Shown here: positions 1,459 to 39,999 of the stretch, piece after piece
Position numbering within the stretch: position 1 is the stretch's first letter
Layout of the letters: each line of letters opens with the position of its first letter
Source: a virus
IMG/VR virus record: IMGVR_UViG_3300033155_001375
Span: 1 to 55,994 of that record
Length of the DNA: 55,994 bases
Reading direction: 5' to 3' (one strand)
Program-made: the position numbers and the translations under genes
The notes under the pieces: generated by a model
Database searches by the model: none
What the model was told of the DNA's origin: nothing
Seen by the model: only the letters and a program-made list of their open reading frames with translations

Positions 1459-3255
1459 ATGATAGCACCTATGCAACCCAGTGGTCTCTGGGAAGGTTTT
1501 ACGACTAACGTGGGAAATGCCCTGCGGTCGTTCTTCGCTCGTACCCCTCAGCGCCAGGCCGCTGAGCTTCAGCGAGGTGGAACGCCGGCGGTTTCAATGG
1601 CCGGGCTCCCATACAACCTCGTCACGCAGTTCGGTTACGACGCCCTGGCTAACTACCTCCGCATCGATCAAGACCTTCAGCAACGCTTTACCGACTACGA
1701 GGAGATGGATGAGTACCCAGAGATTTCTGTGGCGCTCGACATCTACGCAGACGATTCAACCAGTCCAGATTTGGAACGTGAGCAGGCCATTTGGGCAACG
1801 AGTGAGGACCAAAAGATCGCAGACGAGCTGAACCACATGCTCCACAAGCAACTTCTCGTCGAGGAGGACATCTGGGGCGTGGACAGGACCCTATGCAAGT
1901 ACGGCAACGTCTACGGCGAGGCCCTGGTAACCGAAGATGGCCTGGTGGGGATCAACTATCTGCCTCCTCCGACCGTCAGGCGTGTTGAAGGTCCCCGTGG
2001 ACAGCTCATTGGCTTCATCCAGGACATCCGGGGAGAGTTCAATATTTCCCTGGAGGACTTCTACACCCTGGCATCTCAGCAGCAAGCATTCCGCGAGGGC
2101 AAGGCTGGCGGTAATACCCCAGCAGCCATGGGTCGTAAGCCTGGTGAGCTAACGGTCTTTGAGGACTGGGAGATGATTCACTGGAGGCTTCGTGGCAAGC
2201 ATCTGCGCTCTGTCTACGGGCATTCTGTGGTCGATCCTGCAAGGTGGATTTGGAAGCGCTTGTCTCTTCTGGAAGATGCTCTGCTCATTTACAAGCTGGA
2301 GAGGGCACCGGCTCGCTACGCTTTCTATATCGATGTGGGTGAGCTGGATGCCGAGCGCGGCTTGGCGTTCGTCAATAAGGTAAAAAATAGCTTCACCAGA
2401 CAGAAATTCGTCAATCCAAGCACCGGCAAGCTGGACATGAGATTCAATCCTTTAGCAATGGATGAGGATTTTTTCGTGCCTGTGCGTGCTGGCAAGCGGA
2501 CCACAGAGATCGACGTCATTACCGGCCCGGATTACTCCGAGACAGAGACGCTGGAGTATCACAGGGACAAGCTCGTTTCATCCATCAAAATCCCAAAGGT
2601 ATACATGGGATACGGCGGAGAGAGCACTCGTAATGCCCTGTCGAGCGAGGACATCCGGTTTGCCAGGACTGTGATGAGAATCCAGCGGGTCACGCGCAGC
2701 GGATATCGACAGGCATCACGCATCCATCTCATCGCGAAGGGGATAAACACCAAGGCTGACTACGACATCAGAATGAATGTCCCCAGCCAGATTCTCGAGC
2801 TGGCCAGGGTAGAGGTCATGAGCGCCACTGCCGATCTCGCCGCTCGCATGAAGGAGGACGTCGGGACGAAATGGGTCCTGACGCATCTTTACAAATTTTC
2901 TGAGGATGAGGCTGCCTCTGTCATGAAGGAGAAGAGCCAGGAAGACCTGGATAGGGGTGCTCGTGACGCCCAGATTGAAAAAATGAGAATGGAGGGGATG
3001 AGCCCAGAAGATCAGCGTGATGCCATTCTCAAGGGAGACCTGGATGTGCGTCTTTCTCGGCTCATGACGGCTGTCCCTAAGCGTGACTGGCGGAGAGACT
3101 TCGAGCGCCCGCGTGCGGTTGAAAAGAGGGCAGATACTCAGATTGCAAAGGTGCTCAAAGAGAACCGAGATACCAGCCGCCGACTGAAGGAGCTTGGGGG
3201 TCTCATGATGGAGATTCGTGGTGCAATCAGGGCTTCCGCTGCTCCTCCTATGTGA
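1459..3255 (+). CDS. Portal protein (T4 gp20-like)
   Basis: Dodecameric portal at the DNA-entry vertex, the docking site for terminase and later the neck. 598 aa, close to T4 gp20 size. It shows the family pattern: an N-terminal DYEEMDEYPEISVALDIYADD block, a stem/wing region with WRLRGKHLRSVYGHSVVDPARW, then EYHRDKLVSSIKIPKVYMG and the SSEDIRFARTVMRIQR helix. The ATG follows the terminase stop directly with AAGGGG as ribosome site, so the two are probably translationally coupled. The C-terminal ~100 residues are charged and likely helical. Confidence 0.92.
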   Translation: MIAPMQPSGLWEGFTTNVGNALRSFFARTPQRQAAELQRGGTPAVSMAGLPYNLVTQFGYDALANYLRIDQDLQQRFTDYEEMDEYPEISVALDIYADDSTSPDLEREQAIWATSEDQKIADELNHMLHKQLLVEEDIWGVDRTLCKYGNVYGEALVTEDGLVGINYLPPPTVRRVEGPRGQLIGFIQDIRGEFNISLEDFYTLASQQQAFREGKAGGNTPAAMGRKPGELTVFEDWEMIHWRLRGKHLRSVYGHSVVDPARWIWKRLSLLEDALLIYKLERAPARYAFYIDVGELDAERGLAFVNKVKNSFTRQKFVNPSTGKLDMRFNPLAMDEDFFVPVRAGKRTTEIDVITGPDYSETETLEYHRDKLVSSIKIPKVYMGYGGESTRNALSSEDIRFARTVMRIQRVTRSGYRQASRIHLIAKGINTKADYDIRMNVPSQILELARVEVMSATADLAARMKEDVGTKWVLTHLYKFSEDEAASVMKEKSQEDLDRGARDAQIEKMRMEGMSPEDQRDAILKGDLDVRLSRLMTAVPKRDWRRDFERPRAVEKRADTQIAKVLKENRDTSRRLKELGGLMMEIRGAIRASAAPPM

Positions 3256-3348: not shown

Positions 3349-4281
3349 ATGACACGGAAACTTGTTGACGGCGAATTCCTCTCAAAGCTCATCGAAGCCT
3401 CCCATGAAGAGGCCATCAGACGGGCAGATGAGATGGTAGAGCGCAATTCCGAGCTATTTGGAGGCGGTGAAGGGGTTCAGCTCCAGTCATGGACATTCCC
3501 CAGTCACGTCATCGTCGCCAATTCGGAAGGCGAATTTTTCCGCGCTTCCATGGGAGTCTCAGAGGACACCGGGGAGCCCCAATTCGAGCAGGTGGAGACA
3601 ATTGACGTCCCAGTTCGAGAAGCCCGGACCATGGCTCGGGAAGCTCGTGAGACAGCGAACAACGCGGTCACGGCTATCCTGGCAGGTGAGCGAGACAAGG
3701 CCATTGGCGCCGTGTCGGAGCTTCACAATCTGGTCCAGGGAGGAGTTCGGCTCACAGCAGAGTCCGTCGAGAACGACCTTGCGGTGACCGAGATGGCCGA
3801 TCAGGATTGGTTCAAATCAGTCATCACCAATGAGAAGCCAATGCGGACTTTCGTTGGGGCTGAATCCAACAAGCCAACTCAACAGCCTCGATTTGAGAAC
3901 ATCCAAGACCCCACGCCGGACAATGAGTCTCGTTTGCGCAAAATAGTTGCCAGCTCATTGGTGTCTTTGAAAGAGGACTTGGCCGGCATATGCAACAGCC
4001 TGGCTCTCGCTAAGGAGATTACCGAAGCTCATATCCTTCGTGCGGCAGTTGGTGATCCCGCTCTGTCGGCAGTGGATTACGTGGAGTTCGTGGAGGCATT
4101 CGACACCGATCTTTGTCGGGTCAAGGGAGTCGTGGAAGATGCCATGATGGTGTCTGAGGATGGCAACCTCCATAGTCTGGCCCGCATTCATGATGGTGTG
4201 GCGTCCAAGATGTACGAGATGACACTGGCGGCGGCGTTTTGCGAAAAGCTGGCCCGTCGATTCGACGCCCCAGCGGCGTAG
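3349..4281 (+). CDS. Head-region protein of unknown function
   Basis: 310 aa, no recognised family. The protein is acidic and mostly helical in character, with an Ala/Glu/Arg-rich helix around residues 85-130. The N-terminus contains KLIEAS (L14-I-E16-A17), an L-x-E site of the type cut by T4-like prohead proteases. It lies between portal and scaffold/protease genes, so a head-internal or portal-associated role is likely but inferred. The ribosome site before ATG 3349 is poor. A candidate promoter lies about 35 bases upstream. The next start is 10 bases after its stop, with TAGGAGG overlapping the stop. Confidence 0.7.
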   Translation: MTRKLVDGEFLSKLIEASHEEAIRRADEMVERNSELFGGGEGVQLQSWTFPSHVIVANSEGEFFRASMGVSEDTGEPQFEQVETIDVPVREARTMAREARETANNAVTAILAGERDKAIGAVSELHNLVQGGVRLTAESVENDLAVTEMADQDWFKSVITNEKPMRTFVGAESNKPTQQPRFENIQDPTPDNESRLRKIVASSLVSLKEDLAGICNSLALAKEITEAHILRAAVGDPALSAVDYVEFVEAFDTDLCRVKGVVEDAMMVSEDGNLHSLARIHDGVASKMYEMTLAAAFCEKLARRFDAPAA

Positions 4282-4290
4282 GAGGTCAGT

Positions 4291-6015
4291 ATGAGCGCCT
4301 TCAGGCATCCACATAACCACACCGTTCGCCCGCTCGAAGAGGAGCTGGCGGAATTGGGGCTCAATCCTGAAAAGGTTCTGAGCGAGATCGAACGCAACAC
4401 GGCGATGCTCGAAGGTGGACCGTCGCCTCTCGACCTTGGTGGGCTCAAAGAGGGTGATGAGACCATTCGCTCCCTGGTTGAGTACGGCGATTCCTTGAAG
4501 GCCGAGGGTCGCAAGAAAGAGAAGAAAGCCAAGACCAAGAAAGACGACGACGCTGACACGGAGGTCGATGGCGGCTCCGACGGCGACGATGGCTATGAGG
4601 GCATGGGGGAATCCACCCTTATCGAAAAAGAGTGGATCAAAGACGCAATCAAGAACCCAGGTCGAGTCCGTGAGTTCTTGGGCGTCAAGGATGGGGAGAA
4701 GATCCCCATGGCCAAGCTCGACAATGCCATCGATAAGCTGAAGGGCGAGGCCAAGACCGACGACCAGAAGAGCTTGCTCTCGGCCTTGGTGTTGGCGAAG
4801 CGCCTGAAGCAGGGCGTCGGCGAAGACCTGGGTGAAGAGACCAGCGACGACATCATCGACGAAGAGGACATTGCGGATCTCCTCTACCTCATCGACGAGG
4901 GATGGGAGCTTCAAGAGGTGTTCGGCGTTATGAAGAAGGCTCGTGGTGCTGAAGCTCGTATTGCCAAGCGAGTTCGTCACCGAGGCTATCTCAAGACCCG
5001 TGGCGCGAAGAAACTGGCTGCGAAGATTTACCGTAAGAAGTTCAAGCGGAAAATCAAGCGAAGCATGGGCAAGAAGTTGCGTCGGTTTGGGCGCAAGGGT
5101 CTCGAAAAGCTCCATAAGATGGGCAAGAGGGTTGTCCAGAAATCCTGGGCCGACCAACTCGCCAACATCCAGGAGGAGCTGGACGCCGATGCCGCAATCG
5201 ATGATATCGACATCATCGAGGAAGAGGTCATCGAGTACGCCCCTGTCGTAGAGGCCATGTACAATGCGGCAGAGACCGCCATGTACCTCGGCGAGATCTT
5301 CGATGCCATGGATGATGAGGCCGGTCAGGTGCTTCTTACCCTTTCGGATAAGGCTGTGGACCTCGGAGAAGAGATCGAGGCCAGTGAGGACGATCTGACC
5401 GAGGAACAGGAAGCCAAGGCCGAGACCGTCCTGAATGCTGTGATCAAAGCTCTCGCAGAGCACGAAGATCGTGGCTCTCCTTCGCTGAGCGAGGCTATCG
5501 GCATCACTATGGTTGCTGAGGGGCTGGGCTCTTGGGATGAGCTGGTCGAGTACATGCCCCCTACTCCGGGTGAGTTGGCCACGAAGGTCAAGACCGGAAG
5601 AGCTTCTCACAAGGGCTATGGTCAGAATATTCCGGCTGGCAAGACTGCCTCGGCAGATCCGTCGGTCTCTGGAAAATATCTCAAGGCTCTGAACATGGCC
5701 ATGCAGAAGCATGATCCTGAGAAGGCCATGAAGGTCGCCATGGCCGTCGTGAAAAAGCACAAGGTCATGGATGCGAAGGGTCTGCCGGTTACGAGCGTGA
5801 GCACCATGACCGATGTCATGCGGGTCATGTTCTATCTCTCGCAGATTACTGGGCTGAAGGCTCCGTCCTGGATGTACACAGGAAAGTCGAAGCCTTGGTT
5901 CGTGACCCCGAAGAGCAAGGAAGATGACGCGCCGAAGGCAGATAAGGGTATGGCAACGGCTCTGAAGGCACTCGGAGCACCTTCTGGCCTACTGAAGGCC
6001 CTGGCGGCTGCGTGA
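4291..6015 (+). CDS. Large charge-segregated head protein, unknown function
   Basis: 574 aa. In order: an acidic N-terminus (about 1-75, PLEEELAELG), a Lys/Asp-rich linker (75-105), a WIKDAIKNPGRVREFLGV / GEKIP segment (about 110-140) of a type I recall in many phage proteins without known function, a very basic stretch (about 212-285, rich in KK, RR and KRK), a strongly acidic stretch (about 290-400), and an Ala/Met/Lys-rich C-terminus. Basic and acidic blocks side by side suggest a DNA- or scaffold-binding internal head protein, which is inference. Ribosome site TAGGAGG. Its stop overlaps the next start. Confidence 0.75.
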   Translation: MSAFRHPHNHTVRPLEEELAELGLNPEKVLSEIERNTAMLEGGPSPLDLGGLKEGDETIRSLVEYGDSLKAEGRKKEKKAKTKKDDDADTEVDGGSDGDDGYEGMGESTLIEKEWIKDAIKNPGRVREFLGVKDGEKIPMAKLDNAIDKLKGEAKTDDQKSLLSALVLAKRLKQGVGEDLGEETSDDIIDEEDIADLLYLIDEGWELQEVFGVMKKARGAEARIAKRVRHRGYLKTRGAKKLAAKIYRKKFKRKIKRSMGKKLRRFGRKGLEKLHKMGKRVVQKSWADQLANIQEELDADAAIDDIDIIEEEVIEYAPVVEAMYNAAETAMYLGEIFDAMDDEAGQVLLTLSDKAVDLGEEIEASEDDLTEEQEAKAETVLNAVIKALAEHEDRGSPSLSEAIGITMVAEGLGSWDELVEYMPPTPGELATKVKTGRASHKGYGQNIPAGKTASADPSVSGKYLKALNMAMQKHDPEKAMKVAMAVVKKHKVMDAKGLPVTSVSTMTDVMRVMFYLSQITGLKAPSWMYTGKSKPWFVTPKSKEDDAPKADKGMATALKALGAPSGLLKALAAA

Positions 6016-6242
6016 GATGGGTGCCCCTCGAATGGCTGTTCGAGGCCCCGCGAAAACGGAGAACAGCCTATCGAAGTGGGCGTAGAGAGCTTCTTGGAGT
6101 GGAGACACGACGAAATATCATTGGATTCGAGAAGCCAGGTGAGCGTAAGATAGCTCCCAAGAGGAAGCGGCCCGAAAAGTTTCAGTCTGTTTTGAACAGA
6201 ACGGCACTGAGGGCCAAGACGACGAAATCGAGGGTTTGGTAA
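6012..6242 (+). CDS. Small basic protein with W-V-P-L-E-W-L-F-E N-terminus
   Basis: 76 aa, very rich in Arg/Lys, GTG start inside the end of the previous gene (4-base overlap). The N-terminus RWVPLEWLFEAP nearly matches the start of the 12448 protein (AWIPLDSLFERS). Both end in L-F-E, the P3-P1 pattern of T4-like prohead protease sites. It sits directly before the protease-scaffold gene, whose ATG overlaps its stop (TAATG). A packaged basic internal head protein is the simplest guess; no family recognised. Confidence 0.65.
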   Translation: MRWVPLEWLFEAPRKRRTAYRSGRRELLGVETRRNIIGFEKPGERKIAPKRKRPEKFQSVLNRTALRAKTTKSRVW

Positions 6243-7900
6243 TGGCCGCAGGAATTCTCATTGACTCGATGCCACTGGAATTCACCCTGGAAGAGTCCAA
6301 GGACAAGCCAGGGAAGTATGTGGCTCGTGGCAGGTACGCTTGCAGCGACAAGCCAACCGAGAATAAGAGGCTCTACGGCCCACATCTTTGGGAGCGAGAG
6401 ATTGGTCGCCTGGCCGAATCGATGAAGGGCCGCATGGTCTTCGGAGAGTTGGACCACCCTGCGGACGGTCGGACGAAGCTCCAGAGGGTTAGCCATATCC
6501 TCACTGGCCTGAAGGCTGAGGGTTCTGAGATTGTCGGTGAGTCCGAGATCCTGGACACCCCTAATGGACGTATTCTGAAGGCCATCCTGGACGCCGGTGG
6601 CAAGGTTGGCGTGTCCAGCCGTGGCTTCGGAACCACAAAGGTCATCGCCAACGGTGTCCACGAGGTGCAGGAGGACTTCAAACTCCACACTTTCGATTTC
6701 GTGGCGGACCCAGCAATGAAGACTGCGTATCCCGACGTGTTTCACGAGGAGACGCAAAAAATACCGGAGGACGGCATGGAATTGACCCTGGAAGACCTCA
6801 AGAGGGACTACCCAGGGCTCGTAGAGGCCCTGTCCGGGGAGGTCAAGCAGGCCGCTCTGACGGAGATCAACGACGCCCATGGTAACTCTCTCACTGAGGC
6901 GGTGAGTGAGGCAGAGGGGCGCACCGAGACGCGGCTGCGAGAGCAGTTCTCCGGTGAGCTTCGACGGGTGGTTGAGACGGTTGAAGAATCGGCTCGTGAA
7001 AAAGCCACATCTGAAGCCCTGTCAGACCCCGAGGTCGCGCAGGCCAAGGTGACCCTGGAGCAGATTGCTCGGATCATCGCTCCCTTCGGTATCCCGATGG
7101 ACACGCAAGTGGTCATGGATGCCAAGGAGGAGGAGATCACGAAGCTCAAGGGAGAGCTGGCCGAGCGCGAGCTTGAGGTCCAGGCAGCTCGCAAGGAGGC
7201 CACCGAGATGAAGGCCGTTGCCACCGAGGCAGCGTACCAGCTTCACCTCGAGCGCCTTGTGGCTGAGGACGATGCACGCGAAACCATCATCACCCTGGTC
7301 GGGGACATCGCGCAGTATGGGTCCACCGACGAGATTGAGGCCAAGGTCGGAGCTGTCAAGGAAGAGCTGACCAAGGCCAAGGTGCAGGAGCAGGAGAAGG
7401 CGGAGGAGAGAGACGCCGAGACCAAGGCCAAGCTCGATGAGCAAGAGGCCCTACTCAAGGCGGCTGAGGAGAAGGCTGAAGAGGCCGAGACCGAGAAGGA
7501 GAAGGCGAACGACCGCACCCGCAAAGCTCTGAAGGTGGCAGAGGAAATGCAGCTTGCTCTTCATGTTGAGCAACGCATCACTGGTCATGACGGGGCTGAC
7601 GATCTGCGCGGGCTCTGCGAGGAAGCCAAGTCCATCGAGGACGTGGACAATATCATCGCAGGGTACGACAAGCGCCACCCCGAGCCCCCTCGTATTGATG
7701 AGGATCAGGCAGCACGGATCAGGAGCCGTGTCAGCTTGGGCAAAGAGCGGGATATGTACGAAGATACCCACGGAAGACCTGAAGATGGTGACGGGAAGGG
7801 AAATGGTATCGATGAGAACGCCAATGACCCGCTCGTAGCGCTTGGGTTGACTGAGGAGCAGTTTGACGAGTTCGCCGGGACGAAGGGTCTCGACAGTTAG
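6242..7900 (+). CDS. Prohead protease (gp21-like) fused to coiled-coil scaffold
   Basis: 552 aa. Residues 1-170 match the T4 gp21/herpes assemblin-type prohead protease: GELDHP with H72, KVGVSSRGFG with the nucleophile Ser at 125 or 126, and TFDFVADP at about 150-157. From about 175 the protein becomes a long, highly charged Glu/Lys/Ala coiled coil (to about 450), as in T4 gp22 core scaffold, and ends with an acidic tail containing LVALGLTEEQFDEFAG. In T4 these are separate genes; here protease and scaffold form one polypeptide, presumably self-releasing by cleavage. ATG 6242 is preferred over TTG 6236 because it overlaps the preceding stop as TAATG. Confidence 0.9.
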   Translation: MAAGILIDSMPLEFTLEESKDKPGKYVARGRYACSDKPTENKRLYGPHLWEREIGRLAESMKGRMVFGELDHPADGRTKLQRVSHILTGLKAEGSEIVGESEILDTPNGRILKAILDAGGKVGVSSRGFGTTKVIANGVHEVQEDFKLHTFDFVADPAMKTAYPDVFHEETQKIPEDGMELTLEDLKRDYPGLVEALSGEVKQAALTEINDAHGNSLTEAVSEAEGRTETRLREQFSGELRRVVETVEESAREKATSEALSDPEVAQAKVTLEQIARIIAPFGIPMDTQVVMDAKEEEITKLKGELAERELEVQAARKEATEMKAVATEAAYQLHLERLVAEDDARETIITLVGDIAQYGSTDEIEAKVGAVKEELTKAKVQEQEKAEERDAETKAKLDEQEALLKAAEEKAEEAETEKEKANDRTRKALKVAEEMQLALHVEQRITGHDGADDLRGLCEEAKSIEDVDNIIAGYDKRHPEPPRIDEDQAARIRSRVSLGKERDMYEDTHGRPEDGDGKGNGIDENANDPLVALGLTEEQFDEFAGTKGLDS

Positions 7901-7930
7901 GGCCTCCTGGGGCCGAATGAGGAGGGAGTA

Positions 7931-9424
7931 ATGGAAGCGCGTAACCAGCTCACCGAGGCCGGTGCCAGGAGCATCAGGGATGAGTCCTACACCGAGCAGC
8001 TCACGTCCAAATGGGGGAAGTACCTCAAGGGCGTGTCAGAGGATCACACGAAGAAGTGCATGGCGATGCTCTTCGAGAACCAGTTCGGCGATATGCGCCG
8101 GCAGCTCTCGGAGGACACGCTCGCGGTCAATGCCGGGGAGTACACCAAGTACATCTTCCCCGTGCTCAGGCGGGTTTTCCCCAACCTGATCGCGAACGAG
8201 ATCGTCTCGATCCAGCCCATGACCGCACCCGTCGGAGCCGTCTTCTACTTCGAGTACAAGCATGGCAAGTCCAAGGGTTCGACGGCGGCTGGCACCAATC
8301 TGCTCCAAAACTTCGATGAGAACTACTCGTCGGAGACGGTGCAGTGGGAGCAATTCGCTGCTGTCGTAGCTGGTGGCGAGTGGTCCGGTGGAACCCCGGG
8401 TTCCGTCATCGCGGCCTACAGCCCGATCCGGCCTCTCGACACTGCCCTCGGCATCCGGTGTGTCGTGCAGGAGTACAATCCCACGACCGACGCCGTTGTC
8501 CAGGAGAAGATCGATGACGGTGCTGGCGCCTTCACGGGTGGTGGTGCTGGCGTCATCAACTACGCGAATGGACAGCTCTCGTCCTTCACGTTCCCCGTGG
8601 CCACCACGGCGGGTAACGTCATTCGGTGTTCGTACCAGTACGACTCCGAAGCGAACCGCCTGGTCCCCGATGTCTTCATCGACATCGAGCTGCAAGAGAT
8701 TCGGGCCACCACCCGGAAGCTCAAGGCTCGTTGGTCGAGCGAGGCCGCCGACGACCTTCGCGCCTTCCATGGCGTGGACGCCGAGACCGAGCTGGTTTCG
8801 GGCATCTCTCAGGAGATCAGCCTGGAGCTGGACCGAGGCATCCTGGAGCAATTGTTCCAGGCGTCGGCTGGCATCACCAGGTCCTTCGACTTCACCGTTC
8901 CGGCGGGGCTGTCGGAGATCGACCACATCCGGTCGGTCATGACTCAGATGTCCAACGTGAGCTTCCAGATCCACAAGGAATCGCGGCGAGCGCCGGCCAA
9001 CTGGGCTGTCACGTCTCCCGAGGTCTCCTCGAAGATCATCCAGCTCCAAACCCACATGGACTACCGGGCGCCCTTCGTGACCGACCCGGCGTCCCCGAGT
9101 GGCCCCTACGACGGCACTGTGGTTCCTCCGAGCTACGGTCCCATCACGAGCCACTTCGGCATCCTCCGCCTCGGCCCCCTGTCGAACAAGTGGATGATGT
9201 ATCAAGATCCCTTCTTCAGGACGAACTACATCCTGATGGGGCTCCGTGGGCAGAGCTACCTGGATGCGGGCTTCGTGTTCGCACCCTACGTCCCGCTCCA
9301 GCTCACCCCGACCTTCCTGGACCCCGAGGACCAGACCTATCGAAAGGGTCTGAGGACTCGGTACGCGACCAAGCTGCTCCGAGATGAGTGGTACGGACGT
9401 GTTCAGATAACAGGTGGACTCTAG
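7931..9424 (+). CDS. Major capsid protein (T4 gp23-like, HK97 fold)
   Basis: 497 aa. The N-terminal third carries the conserved gp23-type pattern MAMLFENQ, a FPVLRRVFPNLIANEIVSIQPM block and a FYFEYKHGKSKG loop; the C-terminal part has TRYATKLLRDEWYGRVQI. It follows the scaffold/protease, as expected. N-terminal QLTEAG (L7-T-E9) could be the protease cut, though T4 gp23 loses a longer propeptide. Codons are strikingly C-ending (GTC, ATC, TTC, CTC) compared with neighbours, fitting very high expression. Strong ribosome site GAGGAGGGAGTA before ATG 7931. Confidence 0.93.
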   Translation: MEARNQLTEAGARSIRDESYTEQLTSKWGKYLKGVSEDHTKKCMAMLFENQFGDMRRQLSEDTLAVNAGEYTKYIFPVLRRVFPNLIANEIVSIQPMTAPVGAVFYFEYKHGKSKGSTAAGTNLLQNFDENYSSETVQWEQFAAVVAGGEWSGGTPGSVIAAYSPIRPLDTALGIRCVVQEYNPTTDAVVQEKIDDGAGAFTGGGAGVINYANGQLSSFTFPVATTAGNVIRCSYQYDSEANRLVPDVFIDIELQEIRATTRKLKARWSSEAADDLRAFHGVDAETELVSGISQEISLELDRGILEQLFQASAGITRSFDFTVPAGLSEIDHIRSVMTQMSNVSFQIHKESRRAPANWAVTSPEVSSKIIQLQTHMDYRAPFVTDPASPSGPYDGTVVPPSYGPITSHFGILRLGPLSNKWMMYQDPFFRTNYILMGLRGQSYLDAGFVFAPYVPLQLTPTFLDPEDQTYRKGLRTRYATKLLRDEWYGRVQITGGL

Positions 9425-9490
9425 GTCGTTTTTTCAGATTAGCCTTCCTATTACAGCCGTCTTGATTCATACTTATCTCTAACAGGAAAA

Positions 9491-9519
9491 GACCCAGCGG
9501 CACTGACATGCCCTGGGTC
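9491..9519 (+). other. Strong hairpin between capsid gene and HNH gene
   Basis: GACCCAG (9491-9497) pairs with CTGGGTC (9513-9519); inside, GGCA (9499-9502) pairs with TGCC (9509-9512) around a 6-base loop, leaving one bulged C. No T-run follows, so it is not a typical terminator. It could attenuate transcription, stabilise capsid mRNA, or be part of the HNH element. Confidence 0.6.
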
Positions 9520-9545
9520 ATGACTCAACCTGTTTGGAGGTGAGT

Positions 9546-10019
9546 ATGAACAGTGAAGCATTCGCCAGGTTCAGACACAAGTACAGGATTTCAACGAAGC
9601 CTCATCAGCGCCTTGGTACGCCGTGTTGGATATGGACGGCAATGAAGGACAAGGATGGTTATGGTGGGTTTTATGTGCGCCGTGAATCTGATGGCGTATT
9701 CAGACTCAAGCGTGCTCATAAGGTAATGTACGAGCATGTCAATGGCCAGGTGCCAAAGGGGCTAGAGCTTGACCATCTTTGCTGTGTGAGGCATTGCGTC
9801 AACCCAGATCATCTTGAGGCTGTGACACACACAGAGAACGTGCGGCGGGGTGAAGCTGGGCTCCACAATCCAGTCAAGACGCACTGTCCACAGGGGCACG
9901 CCTACACACCAGAGAATACGCTCATCATTAATGATCCACGTGGAGCCCATCGGAGGTGTAAGAGGTGCCACGCCGAATATGAGCGGAAGCGTAGGCGCAG
10001 GCTGAAGAGTCTGGACTGA
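9546..10019 (+). CDS. HNH homing endonuclease, free-standing
   Basis: 157 aa. Core HNH: LELDHLCCVRHCVNPDHLEAV (D76-H77, C84, N86, H89), preceded by the AHKVMYEHVNG strand-helix typical of phage HNH enzymes. The C-terminal zinc-binding tail (HCPQGHAYTPENT, then RCKRCHAEYERKRRRR) is seen in many phage homing endonucleases. ATG 9546 is chosen over TTG 9534 because GGAGG lies at 9536-9540. Codon use is less C-ending than the capsid gene. Likely a selfish insertion between capsid and neck genes; no intron splice structure was recognised. Confidence 0.9.
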   Translation: MNSEAFARFRHKYRISTKPHQRLGTPCWIWTAMKDKDGYGGFYVRRESDGVFRLKRAHKVMYEHVNGQVPKGLELDHLCCVRHCVNPDHLEAVTHTENVRRGEAGLHNPVKTHCPQGHAYTPENTLIINDPRGAHRRCKRCHAEYERKRRRRLKSLD

Positions 10020-10053
10020 TTGTGGTAGGATGCCCGTGAGGAGGAAGGGCAAT

Positions 10054-10437
10054 ATGTCGCATCGCTATGTAAAGCACCCGATGTATGTCGGGAAGAGTCT
10101 CACCATCCATCGTGGTCGACGGGACAAGCTCGTCGGAGACCTCGAAGTCCTGGAAGGGCGTGAGTGGGAGAAGTTTGTGGCCTTGGGCCTTTTGGTCCCG
10201 GACCCCAATGACAAGCCAGAGGAGCCCAAGGCAGCTCCCAGGAAGCCAGTTCCCGAGCCCAAGGCTCCGGAGCCGGTGAAAGACCTTGAGCCTATAAAGG
10301 AGCCTGAGAGGGCGCCTGAGCCGCCTCCAGAGCCATCCCCCGAGCCCGCGAAGGATGAGGTCTCTGTGTCGAGGTCGCCGGCCAACAAGGTCAGCTTCCC
10401 AGGCGCGAAAAAGAAGGGCAAAAAAGGGAAGAAATAG
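10054..10437 (+). CDS. Small protein with Pro/Glu-rich linker and Lys tail
   Basis: 127 aa. A short N-terminal domain (about 1-52, with YVGKSLTIHRG and LLVPDP) is followed by a long P-E-P-K repeat (about 55-105) and ends KKKGKKGKK. The build parallels the 16323 protein, which also has a ~45-residue head, a Pro-rich linker and a basic end. ATG 10054 is preferred over ATG 10030 because GAGGAGG lies upstream. Possible head decoration or neck accessory protein; no family identified. Confidence 0.65.
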   Translation: MSHRYVKHPMYVGKSLTIHRGRRDKLVGDLEVLEGREWEKFVALGLLVPDPNDKPEEPKAAPRKPVPEPKAPEPVKDLEPIKEPERAPEPPPEPSPEPAKDEVSVSRSPANKVSFPGAKKKGKKGKK

Positions 10438-10483
10438 GACGGTTATGTCCCTTCCTGTAGACTAGGGAAAGAGGGAGGGGTCG

Positions 10484-11245
10484 ATGGCTCGACCTTGTAC
10501 GAAAGAAACTTCCATTGCATGGCTTCGGAGGAAGCTTGGCTGTGGTGTCGTCGCTGTTGAATTGAGCGAGGCTCAGGCCGAAGATTCTTTCGACGACGCT
10601 ATACGCTGGTGGGTCGGTAGGAAGGGCATCAAAAAGCACGCTGCCCAAAATCTTACACCTGGTGTGCAGGAGTACGTCATGACTGACGACTGCGACATGG
10701 TGTTGGAGGTGTTCTTTCCTGGTGTTCAGCTTGACATCATTGCAGCGGTCAATCCTTATGCTTTCATCGACGTGGACCAGCTTCCGGTTGCTTACTCTTC
10801 CATCACAGGAGTGCCAGGCGGGAGCTTCTACGGAACCTTTTTTCAGATTCTTCAACATGCAGAGACAGCCAGGCGCGTCGTCAGCAGTGAGCCCACTTGG
10901 GAGTATCGCAAGGACGAGAACAAGCTGTGGATTTTCCCACGGAGTCAGCGCAACGGCTCGGCCATTGCCAGATATGTCTCGAATGATCTCACCAGCGAGA
11001 CCGAGGATGACGAGTTCTGTAAGAAGATTCTGGTGCGCGACCGTGACATCATCCTGAGATGGGCATTGGCGGACGTAAAGGAAACCCTGGGGCGCATCAG
11101 AGGGAAGTACCAGGATTGGCCAACGGCTGGTGGAACGAGGGCTCTGGACGGTGACACGCTCAGAACAGAGGGCCTTGCTGAGAAAGAAAAACTAGATGAT
11201 GAGATTCTGGGCTTGAGTGACCCGGTCCCATTCATAACGGGGTGA
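10484..11245 (+). CDS. Putative neck/head-tail connector protein
   Basis: 253 aa. The N-terminal helical pattern (SIAWLRRKLGCGVVAVELSE, then DAIRWWVGRKG) resembles head-completion/connector proteins encoded just after the capsid gene in many myoviruses. The C-terminal part LVRDRDIILRWALADVKETLGRIRGKYQDWP is also seen in such proteins. It may fill the role of T4 gp13/gp14, but the assignment rests on pattern and position. Ribosome site GAGGGAGGGG. The next gene begins 5 bases after its stop. Confidence 0.6.
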   Translation: MARPCTKETSIAWLRRKLGCGVVAVELSEAQAEDSFDDAIRWWVGRKGIKKHAAQNLTPGVQEYVMTDDCDMVLEVFFPGVQLDIIAAVNPYAFIDVDQLPVAYSSITGVPGGSFYGTFFQILQHAETARRVVSSEPTWEYRKDENKLWIFPRSQRNGSAIARYVSNDLTSETEDDEFCKKILVRDRDIILRWALADVKETLGRIRGKYQDWPTAGGTRALDGDTLRTEGLAEKEKLDDEILGLSDPVPFITG

Positions 11246-11249
11246 CAAA

Positions 11250-11915
11250 ATGTATAACGACAAAAAGCTGATGGAGGGCATCGATGATGCGTTGGAACGA
11301 CAGGGTCTTATGGCAGAAGAGACACTTCCGCCACGGCTTTCAAAGGCATACGTCGACCAGGTGTCCAAGGATGTTGCTGACTATGCCGTGCGGGTCATTT
11401 CAAAGACGCTGAAGGGTGCGAAGGGGAAGCCTAAGCCTAAGCGGCTTGATGTGAAGCAGCTTGCTGCTCTGCGCAGTGGGCTCCCTGGTGTTGTGGCTGT
11501 TTTTCTTCGGAAGCAGCGAATCTTCGTGGATGCTACTCCTGGAATCACGGATACAGATATTGCCGACTTTAGGCGCGTCATGGGTCGTGATCCGCGACCA
11601 GATGAGATGGACGAGGCCAAGGTGTCCGAGCATGGTTTGCTTAGTGAGAAGGCGAACGTCGGGCTTTGGGCGGCATTTCGTAACGCCGTAAAGGCGGACT
11701 CCAGTCTCCAAAAAAGGCTGTCTGATGCTGCCCTGGATGCCATGGCTCGGACCCTCAAAGCCGAGGGGATGAGGTACAAGGGTCACCTGGGTGGCTGGCG
11801 TGAAGAGATCCGCCTGGGTCTGACGAACAAGGCTAACTTGGAAATGTTCCGCTCGCAGGCGAGAGGTCTCATCGAGAAGTCCACACTCGATCTGATCAAA
11901 AAGCTTGTCCTGTGA
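11250..11915 (+). CDS. Unknown head-region protein with LMEG N-terminal peptide
   Basis: 221 aa, basic and mainly helical. The first ~19 residues (MYNDKKLMEGIDDALERQG) closely match the start of the next protein (MDNDKNLMEGIDAKLEEHG), while the rest does not. L7-M-E9-G10 fits an L-x-E prohead-protease site, so the shared peptide may be a removable targeting or propeptide. No family recognised for the body. Confidence 0.7.
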   Translation: MYNDKKLMEGIDDALERQGLMAEETLPPRLSKAYVDQVSKDVADYAVRVISKTLKGAKGKPKPKRLDVKQLAALRSGLPGVVAVFLRKQRIFVDATPGITDTDIADFRRVMGRDPRPDEMDEAKVSEHGLLSEKANVGLWAAFRNAVKADSSLQKRLSDAALDAMARTLKAEGMRYKGHLGGWREEIRLGLTNKANLEMFRSQARGLIEKSTLDLIKKLVL

Positions 11916-11940
11916 TGTGTTGTGGAGTGATGGAGTAAAT

Positions 11941-12444
11941 ATGGACAACGACAAAAATCTGATGGAAGGCATCGACGCCAAACTCGAAGAGCATGGCTTC
12001 GGTAGTGAGGGCTTGGAAGAGGGCATGTCCATTGTCGGGCACACGATGGATGACAAGTCGATCATGCAGGCAGCCAGGGTCGCCATGACGGCTGCAAGTC
12101 GGTCGATGAAGCTTCCAGTCGCCGATAAGCACGTCATTCGTGATGCTTTTTACAAGGCGCTGAGGGGCATTTATCAAGAGGACGTCGAGGTCGATAGTGA
12201 GCCTTTTGAGGAGGGTGTTTTTTCATTCACTCCGAGCCGACAACAACAGGTGCAGGCAGCGAGGGATGGGACCAATGGGGCTGCTGGCAAGGTCTCACAA
12301 GCTCTCTTCGTCGGAGTGGAGGATGAGTACGTCCCGCTGTCCACGAAGATGTACGGCATCGTGAAAAGGCACATGGAGAATGCTGTCCAGGAAGGCGTCA
12401 AGATGATGAAGGGTCACAAGAAGTCTTCAAGGGCTAGGCGGTGA
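11941..12444 (+). CDS. Unknown head-region protein sharing the LMEG N-terminal peptide
   Basis: 167 aa. It starts with the same LMEGID peptide as the preceding protein, then diverges into an Ala/Lys-rich helical body (AARVAMTAASRSMKLP, GIVKRHMENAVQEGVKMM) ending SSRARR. ATG 11941 is chosen because GATGGAG lies upstream and the conserved peptide begins there; upstream in-frame codons overlap the previous gene. Either an internal head protein or a duplicated leader on unrelated proteins. Confidence 0.7.
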   Translation: MDNDKNLMEGIDAKLEEHGFGSEGLEEGMSIVGHTMDDKSIMQAARVAMTAASRSMKLPVADKHVIRDAFYKALRGIYQEDVEVDSEPFEEGVFSFTPSRQQQVQAARDGTNGAAGKVSQALFVGVEDEYVPLSTKMYGIVKRHMENAVQEGVKMMKGHKKSSRARR

Positions 12445-12447
12445 CGA

Positions 12448-12795
12448 GTGGCTTGGATTCCCCTCGATAGCCTCTTCGAGAGGTCACCATCCTCCAAGGC
12501 GCGGGGGAAGGGAAAGACGAAGGCCCAGATGGTGCCTGCCACGGTGTCTCACTGTGTCCTGGCTGTGAAGAAGAAGGGCAAGGGGACTGGTGAGGCTTGG
12601 AATATTTGTCGGGCTCAGCTCACCAAACAGGGCTATCTGAAGGGTCCGTACAAGACCAATGCGAAGCTCCCAGATGACGTCCGCCCTACGTCCAAGGGTG
12701 TTCGTCGAGGCATGAAGCACGCCATGGAGAAGGACGCCCCGGAGAAGTTCAACAAGTTCAAGGATGCTCTGCGGGGCATCGAGACGAGGTTGTGA
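12448..12795 (+). CDS. Small basic protein with W-I-P-L-D-S-L-F-E N-terminus
   Basis: 115 aa, Lys-rich, GTG start 3 bases after the previous stop. N-terminus AWIPLDSLFERS is the near twin of the 6012 protein's RWVPLEWLFEAP. The middle has SHCVLAVKKKGKG and EAWNICRAQLTKQGYLK, a Cys-containing segment I recall from other phage structural clusters without function. An L-x-E cut after E11 would release the basic body. Stop overlaps the next ATG (TGATG). Confidence 0.65.
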   Translation: MAWIPLDSLFERSPSSKARGKGKTKAQMVPATVSHCVLAVKKKGKGTGEAWNICRAQLTKQGYLKGPYKTNAKLPDDVRPTSKGVRRGMKHAMEKDAPEKFNKFKDALRGIETRL

Positions 12796-13049: not shown

Positions 13050-13613
13050 GTGGCGAAGTTTTGCCCCACGGATTGTGTAGCTGGGCGCAACCTTTTCCCA
13101 GGCGACAACTGTGAGGGCTGTGGTGACGAGCGCTTGATTCATGACACCATCGCAGCAGAGCCAGCCATCCTATCTGGAGTTCGATTGCGGCTCTACAGCT
13201 TGCGCCGGGCCAAGAATCGTCACCCGCTTTATAAGGAGCCCAGCTACGAAGGAAAAGAGTGGGTGTTTCAAGGTCCATTTGAGATGTATGGAGAGCTGGA
13301 CTTTCCCCAGGCAGCGAACACTCAGTCAGAAGTCACAGAGGTCGGCCAGAGGAGATCGTCCGAGGCGATCATGAAGATCCCGCGCTCCGAGGTCGAGCGG
13401 GCAGAAGCTCCATACCCAAAGAAGGGTGACGTCCTTGAGTTTTGGTGGGAGGGACCATTCGCTGATAAGGATGGCTACTCTCAGTGGGATGTGACCGGCG
13501 CGGATCGTGATGGGAATGTGATGTCGACGCCGCAGTTCGTTGGTTTCGAGGTCGAGATCAAGCGGCGTGGGAAATTCCTAGCATTCCGCAAGACGGAGCA
13601 TACGCAGATATGA
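13050..13613 (+). CDS. Protein with N-terminal Cys cluster, unknown function
   Basis: 187 aa, GTG start directly after the preceding stop, with GGTGAGG as ribosome site. N-terminal CPTDC (C5, C9) and CEGCG (C20, C23) form a plausible single zinc site. The rest is beta-rich with Trp/Phe/Tyr clusters (VLEFWWEGPFADKDGYSQWDV). Neck or tail completion is possible by location only. It overlaps the next gene by 4 bases (ATGA). Confidence 0.6.
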   Translation: MAKFCPTDCVAGRNLFPGDNCEGCGDERLIHDTIAAEPAILSGVRLRLYSLRRAKNRHPLYKEPSYEGKEWVFQGPFEMYGELDFPQAANTQSEVTEVGQRRSSEAIMKIPRSEVERAEAPYPKKGDVLEFWWEGPFADKDGYSQWDVTGADRDGNVMSTPQFVGFEVEIKRRGKFLAFRKTEHTQI

Positions 13614-13930
13614 AATCGTATTCGGAACAGCTCAGGGAGGCCAAGGACGCCAAGGTTGCGCTCCATCCTGGGCTCGTGGTGAAGGTGAAGACGAAGGCGG
13701 GCAAGTTGGTAACCCAGGGTCGCATCACGAACGTCGATCCTGATATAGGATTCGTGAGCGTAGCTAATGAAGATGCAGGGGCAGATCTCCGCGTGGATGT
13801 CGACCCCAAGCATTACGTCATTTGGGTGCTTCCGCCAACGAATTATGTGCCCAGGCTCCCAGACCAGACCACCCTCTACATAAGGACGTCCAGGCCGGGG
13901 CCACACGCCTTCTCCAACGTGAAGATGTAG
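13610..13930 (+). CDS. Small beta-rich protein of unknown function
   Basis: 106 aa. ATGA overlap with the preceding gene. Central LHPGLVVKVKTKAGKLVTQGRITNV looks like a small SH3/KOW-type beta barrel, but this is only a pattern impression. Its TAG stop forms part of the ribosome site (TAGGAG) of the next gene. Confidence 0.55.
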   Translation: MKSYSEQLREAKDAKVALHPGLVVKVKTKAGKLVTQGRITNVDPDIGFVSVANEDAGADLRVDVDPKHYVIWVLPPTNYVPRLPDQTTLYIRTSRPGPHAFSNVKM

Positions 13931-14267: not shown

Positions 14268-15073
14268 TGTTGGAGTTCTACTTGAAAGAGGAGCCAAAAA
14301 ATAAAGAGGCGAAGAAGCTGGTTGAGACGTGGCAAGAGCGTCTTGATGCCTTCATTCTCGCGCTGCCACAGGAGATTGCCAAGGACGCACATCTTGACGT
14401 CGTGAAATTGGCGCCGACAGATATGCCGAAATATCCAGACATGTTGAAAGTGGTTCAGTTTCCCAAACAAGGTGACTGGCAGATCATAGGCATCATCCCA
14501 CCTGGGTGGAACTATTCTCAGCGACTTAGGACGTCTGACATTCAGCGCACACTGATTGATATTTTCCCAAAGATGCGAGGAGGGGAAGCAGTCTCTCAGG
14601 GGGTTGTAGTTTTGGCCAGAAGCAATCCCTGGACGATGGGCACGCTGCCCTATGAACCGAGCAAACAAGAGGCCAGTGTTCGATCAAGGAGGGTAGACGA
14701 GAAGGATGTTCAGGCTGTAGAGAAGAAGAGAGAGGCTGATAAAGACGCCATCATTCAGGAGCTTCGTTCGCTGGGGGTTCCCATCAGGGCCACTGGCAAG
14801 GTACTCTTGGAGCGACGAGTCAGTAGGGACATTGCCTTTGAAGTGCTTCGGCGCGAGAAGGGAATAGGGATGCCCGGCAAGGCTCATTGGAGACCGGCTG
14901 TGCGAGCGATTTATACCCAACACTTCAAAAGAGCGATGGAGGAGTTTGGGTTATGGATGGCCGATCCTGATAATGAGGAATGGCAGAAAAATCGGAATCT
15001 GCCTATCGAGGCCGAATCCGTGATAGAACAGGTACAGGAATTTCAGGACAGAATCGTTCCTGGCGGGGCGTAA
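14267..15073 (+). CDS. Unknown protein, 268 aa
   Basis: No recognised family. Charged, mixed helical protein with an aromatic central part (GDWQIIGIIPPGWNYSQRLR) and a long Lys/Glu helix near residues 140-180. ATG overlaps the preceding stop. Lies in the neck/tail-completion interval between capsid and sheath genes. Confidence 0.65.
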   Translation: MLEFYLKEEPKNKEAKKLVETWQERLDAFILALPQEIAKDAHLDVVKLAPTDMPKYPDMLKVVQFPKQGDWQIIGIIPPGWNYSQRLRTSDIQRTLIDIFPKMRGGEAVSQGVVVLARSNPWTMGTLPYEPSKQEASVRSRRVDEKDVQAVEKKREADKDAIIQELRSLGVPIRATGKVLLERRVSRDIAFEVLRREKGIGMPGKAHWRPAVRAIYTQHFKRAMEEFGLWMADPDNEEWQKNRNLPIEAESVIEQVQEFQDRIVPGGA

Positions 15074-15087
15074 GCCTGGAGGAGAAA

Positions 15088-15615
15088 ATGGACTACGATC
15101 AGGTCAACGATGTGCTCAGTCGAGCGAATCAGGAGTTCGAGCGGCGTGAGCTGGAAGACCTTCGGGCCTACGAGATCGAGGGCGAGCTGGTGACAGGGAA
15201 TAAGCCCACCTCTGAGGATCTGGACAAGATCGAAGAGCAGTATGTGGGCACAGGGGGCACCGATGCTCCTGATTTCTCGCCTGATGGCGATCCCATTATT
15301 GGGAGTGACCAGGGCGTGGACAACCTCGCAACGGACGCAGAGTCGTATATGAGCTATGTGGCAGGAACCTCCGCCGACATCGCAGCTCAATGCAGTGTTT
15401 CCGACGACGAGGCCCTGTCTTCCTTTGAGGATGTCGCGAAGCAGATGGCAGAGGCTGGTTCATTGCCACCTATGCCTGATGTCGAGTCAGCGTCCTCAGA
15501 TGAGATCTTGCTGTGGACCGGCGCAGCCAAGACGAGCGATCTCGTGGCGCGAGTCATCGAGTTTGTCAGGGCTGGCCAGGGCCAAGGACCGCTCCACACC
15601 GTCGTAGGGCGGTAG
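15088..15615 (+). CDS. Acidic protein of unknown function
   Basis: 175 aa, strongly acidic. ATG 15088 is chosen because GGAGGAG lies just upstream (15078-15084); the frame is open further upstream but that part overlaps the preceding gene. A helical start (ANQEFERRELEDLRAYEIEGE) is followed by a Gly/Asp-rich linker and an Ala-rich C-terminal half. Possible tail-completion or chaperone role by position only. Confidence 0.6.
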   Translation: MDYDQVNDVLSRANQEFERRELEDLRAYEIEGELVTGNKPTSEDLDKIEEQYVGTGGTDAPDFSPDGDPIIGSDQGVDNLATDAESYMSYVAGTSADIAAQCSVSDDEALSSFEDVAKQMAEAGSLPPMPDVESASSDEILLWTGAAKTSDLVARVIEFVRAGQGQGPLHTVVGR

Positions 15616-20447: not shown

Positions 20448-21008
20448 ATGAATAGGCCCCTCTCAGAACAGCTTGCCGATGCCGTGAATAGCGAAGTCCT
20501 AAGCAGTAGCGGGTTTCGTTGCAAGCTTCTGCGGCTCACCCACGAGAATTACCCCGGCAAGGCGGTTCACGGCGTCCTCCCGCTCGTTGTCATCGGTCAT
20601 GAGGCCCTGACAGACGTCGAGTGGGGAGGGTGGCTCAGAGAGAATGCTACGGCTGCCTACGGGACAGCCTATGCCCAAAAGCTCGTAGAGACCGGCGTGG
20701 ACCTCAAGGCCATGCTGCCAACGGCTCCCATTGGGCGACTGCTCCGCATCTCGAAGGAGGCGAAGTGGATCTCTCTGGCTAATCGGTATCAGTATGTGAA
20801 TGAGGCTGGAGCTATTCTCACCTTGGTTGAGAAGTGGCCTTCGTTGTACAATTTGATGGCAGAGGAAATGGCCGAAGAGGAAATGACCCTGGAGACTTTC
20901 GTTGAACGGGTCAAGAACATGCCAACACCGTGGGAAATAGGCCAAGGTCGAGACCTCACGTTGGGTGACCTCATCGGTCGGGGTGTCGTGTTGACTCCCA
21001 ACTGGTAG
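20448..21008 (+). CDS. Unknown protein before the tail tube gene
   Basis: 186 aa from ATG 20448 (GTG at 20445 also possible); GTAGGTG upstream. Helical C-terminal half with an acidic EEMAEEEMTLETFVERVKNM helix. Position before the tube gene suggests tail assembly, without sequence support. Its TAG stop begins the next ribosome site (TAGGAGAAGGAG). Confidence 0.6.
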   Translation: MNRPLSEQLADAVNSEVLSSSGFRCKLLRLTHENYPGKAVHGVLPLVVIGHEALTDVEWGGWLRENATAAYGTAYAQKLVETGVDLKAMLPTAPIGRLLRISKEAKWISLANRYQYVNEAGAILTLVEKWPSLYNLMAEEMAEEEMTLETFVERVKNMPTPWEIGQGRDLTLGDLIGRGVVLTPNW

Positions 21009-39669: not shown

Positions 39670-39999
39670 ATGGCTGTTAGAATTAGAGGGACATCACGGC
39701 AAAAATTTTCCAGGTTACTGGTTATTGACGATGTGGAACATTGGGAGATGCCCGAAAACCCAATCATCGAGGAAGCTCGTGATGACACAATTTACCAAGT
39801 GCAGCAGGAGGATCGTATCGACCTGCTTGCCGATATGTTTTACGGTAACGCGGAGCTGTGGTGGGTCATCGCAATTCTCAATAATCTGAATCTACTTCCG
39901 AACGATCTCAAGCCATTTTCGACCATTCGCATCCCATCGAATAATCGGGTATTCGGTAGCATCTTGAAGCAGGCGGCGAAGAGGAAGGAAGGGAGGTAG
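39670..39999 (+). CDS. LysM-like baseplate protein (gp53/gpX-like)
   Basis: 109 aa. The pattern DTIYQVQQEDRIDLLADMFYGNAELWW, then IAILNNLNLLPNDLKPFSTIRIPS, is the LysM-type fold used by P2 gpX and T4 gp53-type baseplate proteins to bind tail hub or peptidoglycan. Placed between tape measure and hub genes, as usual for P2/Mu-like tails. Confidence 0.75.
   Translation: MAVRIRGTSRQKFSRLLVIDDVEHWEMPENPIIEEARDDTIYQVQQEDRIDLLADMFYGNAELWWVIAILNNLNLLPNDLKPFSTIRIPSNNRVFGSILKQAAKRKEGR

Follow-up and report, generated by a model that had tools for sequence, protein, structure and literature searches.

Lineage-specific N-terminal peptides as candidate capsid-targeting tags on unrelated proteins of an uncultured T4-like phage

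We analysed a 55,994-nucleotide stretch of viral DNA (IMG/VR record IMGVR_UViG_3300033155_001375, positions 1 to 55,994; hereafter the window), in which several proteins encoded in the head-gene region begin with short peptides that end in (L/I)-x-E. Profile searches identified the window as a fragment of a T4-like myovirus, with portal, S77 protease, and gp23 homologs as well as a gp13-like neck protein. Relatives of the capsid protein were found in 27 viral contigs, with identities of 42-100%, and no isolate was found with more than 35% identity. The phage group is therefore uncultured.

Head-region genes and their N-terminal peptides

A reading of the same DNA made from its letters alone (the sequence-only reading) had pointed to six head-region proteins whose N-terminal peptides end in L-x-E, and had proposed that these peptides route the proteins into the prohead and are then removed by a gp21-class protease. 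The genes concerned, together with those for the portal protein and the protease, are listed below; numbers within motifs give the residue, and letters A to D denote the peptide dialects described in the next section.

1459..3255, + strand: portal protein (gp20-like; Portal_T4, 1e-60) with N-terminal L10-W-E12/G-F
3349..4281, + strand: head-region protein with KLIE16-A, rejected as a cleavage tag
6012..6242, + strand: small basic protein (76 amino acids, isoelectric point 11.8) with tag W-V-P-L-E-W-L-F-E11/A; peptide 6012-6044, dialect A
6242..7900, + strand: prohead protease (S77, gp21-like; Peptidase_S77, 2e-15; PHROG head maturation protease, 3.5e-45 over residues 15-426) with a long acidic, coiled-coil-like C-terminal part
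7931..9424, + strand: major capsid protein (gp23-like; Gp23, 2.6e-60) with L-T-E9/A (codon 7955-7957) and L-S-E61/D (codon 8111-8113)
11250..11915, + strand: variable-slot protein (221 amino acids, isoelectric point 9.7) with tag MYNDKKLME9/G; peptide 11250-11276, dialect B
11941..12444, + strand: variable-slot protein (167 amino acids) with tag MDNDKNLME9/G; peptide 11941-11967, dialect B
12448..12795, + strand: small basic protein (115 amino acids, isoelectric point 10.3) with tag W-I-P-L-D-S-L-F-E11/R; peptide 12448-12480, dialect A

The six N-termini were indeed as described (KLIE16-A at 3349, WLFE11-A at 6012, QLTE9-A at 7931, KLME9-G at 11250, NLME9-G at 11941, and SLFE11-R at 12448). 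The assignment of a gp21-class protease to 6242 was borne out by both profile matches, and this protease is encoded together with the gp20 and gp23 homologs.

An L/I-x-E motif within residues 5-20 was present in eight of the ten genes from 3349 to 12448, compared with 9 of the 50 window genes elsewhere (Fisher p=3e-4). The motif was also found at these residues in ~20% of the proteins of related contigs. With a baseline frequency of about one-fifth, a single match proves nothing, and each case therefore needs its own support. The same baseline speaks for chance or composition, according to which phage proteins that are helical and acidic commonly have L-x-E near their N-termini and the six cases reflect a selection effect. 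This explanation is correct for 3349, for which the proposed targeting or cleavage peptide was not upheld: relatives show LIEG, LIAG, LLGG, LVDG, LLAG, or LTEG within a longer conserved N-terminal stretch, with Glu changed to Gly, Ala, or Asp in many of them. It is probably also correct for a further match at 39748 (MPENPIIEEA), which is missing in relatives. For the set as a whole, however, chance is strongly disfavoured and very improbable, given the head-region enrichment, the conservation of Glu among orthologs, and, as described below, a position-specific peak that random viral proteins do not show.

The proteins encoded at 6012 and 12448 share their leader and are otherwise unrelated, as the sequence-only reading had stated. 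Their N-terminal match scored 39 over nine residues, above the 99.9% null level of ~33, which was derived from the comparison of called genes; 6012 was not among the called genes in the window-wide N-terminal comparison and was scored against 12448 separately. All clade-1 N-termini found for 6012 orthologs contain [LIFVM]-x-E at residue 10-12, in one form shifted by a residue (LLLGE/G), with an entropy of zero for Glu and a variable residue before it. Most relatives of 12448 likewise contain L-x-E. In the AlphaFold model for 12448, residues 1-27 had a predicted local distance difference test score (pLDDT) of <50, but the model was poor throughout (pLDDT 48).

Among called window genes, only 11250 and 11941 share an N-terminus with strong significance (score of 62, compared with a shuffled maximum of 42), and their bodies are unrelated, again as had been claimed. 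The leader DNA of the two genes is nearly identical, and the copying is therefore recent. No ortholog of 11941 was found among the first 27 relatives, and neither gene has a true ortholog in relatives. In the relatives, similar peptides head different bodies in the slot 3' of the gp13-like gene (MEDEQALHEG, MHDENKLLEG, and MEEQQKLMEA), with MFENHRQLIEA and MFKDHNELIEA located near that slot. Every member of this peptide class contains the L/I-x-E site. Pfam and PHROG searches with the window carriers gave no match.

For the capsid protein, the sequence-only reading had singled out E9. Across two clades, most distinct N-termini retain this site, with shifts in spacing, and a few (for example, L019 and L200) have lost it. 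Alignment with T4, on the other hand, placed QLSE61 opposite FLTE65 of gp23, so that an L/I-x-E occupies the gp23 maturation position; E61 is invariant and L59 nearly invariant in 12 sequences. We therefore rejected E9 as the main maturation site, given that E61 fits T4 better, even though E9 is mostly kept. The AlphaFold model for the capsid protein was poor (pLDDT 46). In 13 motif-bearing clade-1 relatives, the portal protein begins with a prefix of variable length followed by [LI]-x-E-G-F, in which E, G, and F are constant and the residue before Glu (P2) varies; this motif was not found in the more distant clade 2. The N-terminus of the protease reads ILID in the window, LLIE in others, and LLIE9 in T4 gp21. 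Given that E and D alternate and that the stretch may belong to the fold, it was not counted as a site.

Peptide dialects among related phages

In most lineages, otherwise unrelated proteins begin with a peptide particular to that lineage. The dialects comprise W-x-P-L-x-x-L-F-E (A), NDKxLMEG (B), MDIExVN...xEA (C), MxLSxQLxEA (D), and MDLQEYLAES. Counts of [LI]-x-E-[AGS] over the window plus seven related contigs were 43 at residue 9 and 16 at residue 10, compared with ~5 per position elsewhere, whereas the Asp version of the motif gave no positional peak; the enrichment is thus specific to both position and Glu. Random viral contigs (909 proteins), which served as the negative control, yielded no peak (4 and 1 at residues 9 and 10, with a background of 2 per position). 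In T4, the positive control, the six matches at residues 9-10 were IPII, IPIII, gp21, gp22, gp24, and gp2, all of which are head proteins and five of which are known gp21 substrates. The peak appeared again in additional, independent clade-1 loci (14 and 9 versus 1.2).

The largest class, dialect D (M-x-[LI]-[SA]-x-Q-L-x-E-A), comprises 78 N-termini when defined by the targeting part alone, distributed over 46 unrelated body clusters (10 bodies in G006 and 18 in G007), compared with a match in 1 of the 909 control proteins. The Glu at the position before the site (P1) is present in 51% of these N-termini, about six times the 8% for interior matches. Dialect C has a peptide of ~28 residues and 16 body clusters, with P1 Glu near-invariant and P2 free.

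Recent copying, by which a leader is duplicated by recombination onto a neighbouring gene and has no function, might account for such sharing, and the nearly identical leader DNA of 11250 and 11941 is what it predicts. Codon sharing in dialect-C arrays is also slightly above expectation (0.52 versus 0.42 in G008). In dialect D, by contrast, the fraction of shared codons is at or below the random synonymous expectation (0.39 versus 0.42 in G007 and 0.44 versus 0.50 in G006). Selection therefore acts on the peptide, and the peptides are old and maintained at the amino acid level. Given in addition that the slot peptide persists over differing bodies in relatives, we regard functionless copying as the least probable of the explanations considered.

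Several findings weigh against a targeting-and-cleavage interpretation. Within dialect D, Ala following the site (64/78) is better kept than Glu (40/78). Half of the peptides lack Glu, whereas most have the Ala, and the motif must therefore be more than a cleavage site. Some members might mediate targeting without cleavage, or the pattern could instead indicate a docking role. The shared N-termini would in the latter case be docking helices for another phage machine, such as the tail or a transcription or replication complex, with L-x-E being incidental. The preservation of the dialect-D shape is in keeping with docking, as is the large distance that separates several dialect-D genes from the head operon in G006, G007, and G010. 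We nevertheless consider it unlikely, given the roughly sixfold excess of P1 Glu over interior matches, the lack of an Asp peak, the near-invariant Glu and free P2 of dialects A and C and of the portal protein, and the tandem arrays that G004, L191, and L013/L020 have inside their head operons.

Further points against the targeting interpretation concern its extent and the methods. The residue 9-10 peak was absent in three of four further genomes (G015, G017, and G018) and fell short of significance in the fourth (G016). We therefore rejected the notion of a universal peak in gp21-bearing phages, and the signature of dialect D is specific to particular lineages. Blind comparison of N-terminal sequences recovered IPII and IPIII in T4 and, on unrelated bodies, a separate dialect in G015 (MDLQEYLAES, MDLREYLAES, MDLQHFLAEQ, and MDIRSFLSES) and an MDIxxVN...EA dialect in G016; in the clade-2 genomes G017 and G018, it found no leader common to unrelated bodies, only homologous families. 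The dialect is thus a property of the lineage, with some gp21-bearing phages showing none. Among relatives of 12448, L-x-E is lost in L018 (VID) and L023 (VIG). Gene starts were taken from a simple caller; the start codon is GTG for 6012 and 12448, and the start of 11941 is an internal ATG within a longer TTG open reading frame. Finally, dialect D had been defined by eye before its members were counted, and the random viral proteins, the independent loci, and the four additional genomes serve as guards for this reason; the related contigs are non-independent samples.

Proposed role in capsid targeting and comparison with known systems

With a probability of about 0.72, we interpret the peptides as diversified capsid-targeting sequences of the type found on T4 internal proteins, serving a much larger cargo. 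A carrier would be made with an N-terminal peptide of ~9-12 residues (~28 in dialect C), which would bind the core or scaffold of the growing prohead and so enclose the protein. The S77 protease encoded at 6242, the presumed cutter of the peptides, would then cleave after (L/I)-x-E to free the mature protein, which would remain alongside the DNA in the head and probably be injected. The acidic C-terminal part of the 6242 protein is presumed to serve as core or scaffold. We infer the binding, cleavage, packaging, and injection of these proteins from the patterns described above. Within the window, 6012, 12448, 11250, and 11941 are well-supported as carriers, in agreement with the sequence-only reading, which was right in kind but too narrow in extent: 3349 dropped out, the capsid protein was half right, and the portal protein, a gene at 13610, and the genome-wide spread had been missed.

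In the T4 IPIII peptide, residues 4 and 7 govern targeting and residues 8 and 10 processing; Asp at residue 10 stops processing and leaves targeting, and gp21 cleaves after L/I-x-E (PMC9026906). Judged by sequence, the window peptides fit this scheme. The T4 internal proteins cut by gp21 (IPI, IPII, IPIII, and Alt) likewise share a short N-terminal peptide (MKTYQEFIAE/A) that ends in (I/L)-x-E on unrelated proteins, in a phage with an S77 protease and gp20 and gp23 homologs. The present peptides differ in that their sequences vary by lineage, that one dialect extends to ~28 residues and many dialect-D members lack Glu, that some relatives have 10-18 unrelated dialect-D bodies compared with the handful of known T4 substrates, and that the bodies have no homology to T4 internal proteins. 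Separately, T4 gp61.1 (NC_000866, 18966-19130) starts with MKTFKEFIKED, close to the IPI/IPIII tag, and is a candidate undescribed internal protein.

Other phages offer partial parallels. The N-terminal 30 residues of phage P1 DarB suffice to send a reporter into the capsid, but the study reports no consensus among the Dar N-termini (PMC9024508), whereas the peptides described here are shared by proteins of one genome and terminate in a protease-type site. Many packaged ejection proteins of SPN3US/phiKZ-type giant phages are cut by an S77-related, gp245-type prohead protease, although at A-x-E (PMC7411985) rather than at (L/I)-x-E as here and in T4. Phage polyvalent proteins, which are thought to be packaged and injected, also include RelA/SpoT domains but are long and multidomain (PMC5512222); the present carriers are mostly small single proteins linked by the leader alone. 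A study of far-T4 phages (PMC4360716) contains no mention of such tags.

Most carriers have no known domain. Carrier domains identified in relatives were RelA/SpoT (1.8e-9), SprT-like (4e-8), and GNAT, and one carrier matched S-adenosylmethionine (SAM) lyase at the cut-off (28.2 bits versus 28); a PDB search with this possible SAM lyase gave no useful match. Four carriers outside the window thus have domains compatible with injected effectors. The carrier with the borderline SAM-lyase match, which starts with MELSKDLSEA (G010 14599-15255, locus L067), is a possible injected anti-restriction enzyme.

A broader proposal, for which we see even odds, is that the address peptide acts as a general code for virion cargo in many lineages of uncultured far-T4 myoviruses, each of which would use a peptide of its own to send up to ~18 unrelated proteins per genome into the head. 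The cargo would include candidate anti-defence or host-takeover enzymes (RelA/SpoT, SprT-like, GNAT, and possibly SAM-lyase), and targeting and cleavage would be separable, because half of the dialect-D peptides retain the targeting shape without Glu. The head-borne phage proteins that enter the cell first are usually known only through proteomics of cultured phages. Should the peptides be targeting tags, the sequences of uncultured T4-like phages would suffice to list their cargo and would yield a small set of candidate first-strike anti-defence proteins without known homologs. The peptides would also provide new interchangeable tags for loading of phage heads and a natural test of the separation of targeting from cleavage.

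Further candidate carriers and neighbouring genes

Three additional window genes have N-termini that resemble dialects C or D.

13610..13930, + strand: 106-amino-acid protein with tag MKSYSEQLRE10/A, dialect D
15088..15615, + strand: 175-amino-acid protein with a dialect-C-like N-terminus, MDYDQVNDVLSRANQEFERRELEDLRAYEIEG, whose aligned position lacks a clear cleavage site
20448..21008, + strand: 186-amino-acid protein starting with MNRPLSEQLAD11-A, of dialect-D shape with Asp at P1

The 13610 peptide MKSYSEQLREA is collinear with MKTYQEFIAEA of T4 (Y4, L/I8, E10, and A11). Ortholog N-termini have Glu at the site in ~14 of 20 cases and D, R, G, or K in the rest. The 13610 protein and the portal protein are likely carriers. 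The leader of 15088 is a single-copy relative of the peptide found on tandem genes with differing bodies in L013/L020 and G016.

Several neighbouring features were also observed. A stretch of the head-region protein encoded at 4291-6015 matches the Fusellovirus VP2 capsid/DNA-binding family (PF25632, 1.8e-7, above the cut-off), and homologs of this protein in relatives range widely in length, from ~280 to 850 amino acids. Just 3' of the capsid gene, an open reading frame with a TTG start (9534-10019) resembles an HNH endonuclease, and G001 contains an HNH-like gene (53894) at the matching position. Hint-like N-terminal fragments and overlong portal open reading frames suggest the presence of inteins in portal genes of relatives (portal/terminase genes such as those at G008 31611, L016 524, and G010 141603). 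Finally, a 183-kb contig binned as a Phycisphaerae metagenome-assembled genome (L274, JAJDDX010000500.1) contains a capsid gene 67% identical to that of the window. It is probably a phage contig that was binned along with bacterial DNA, and it provides only a weak indication of the host.

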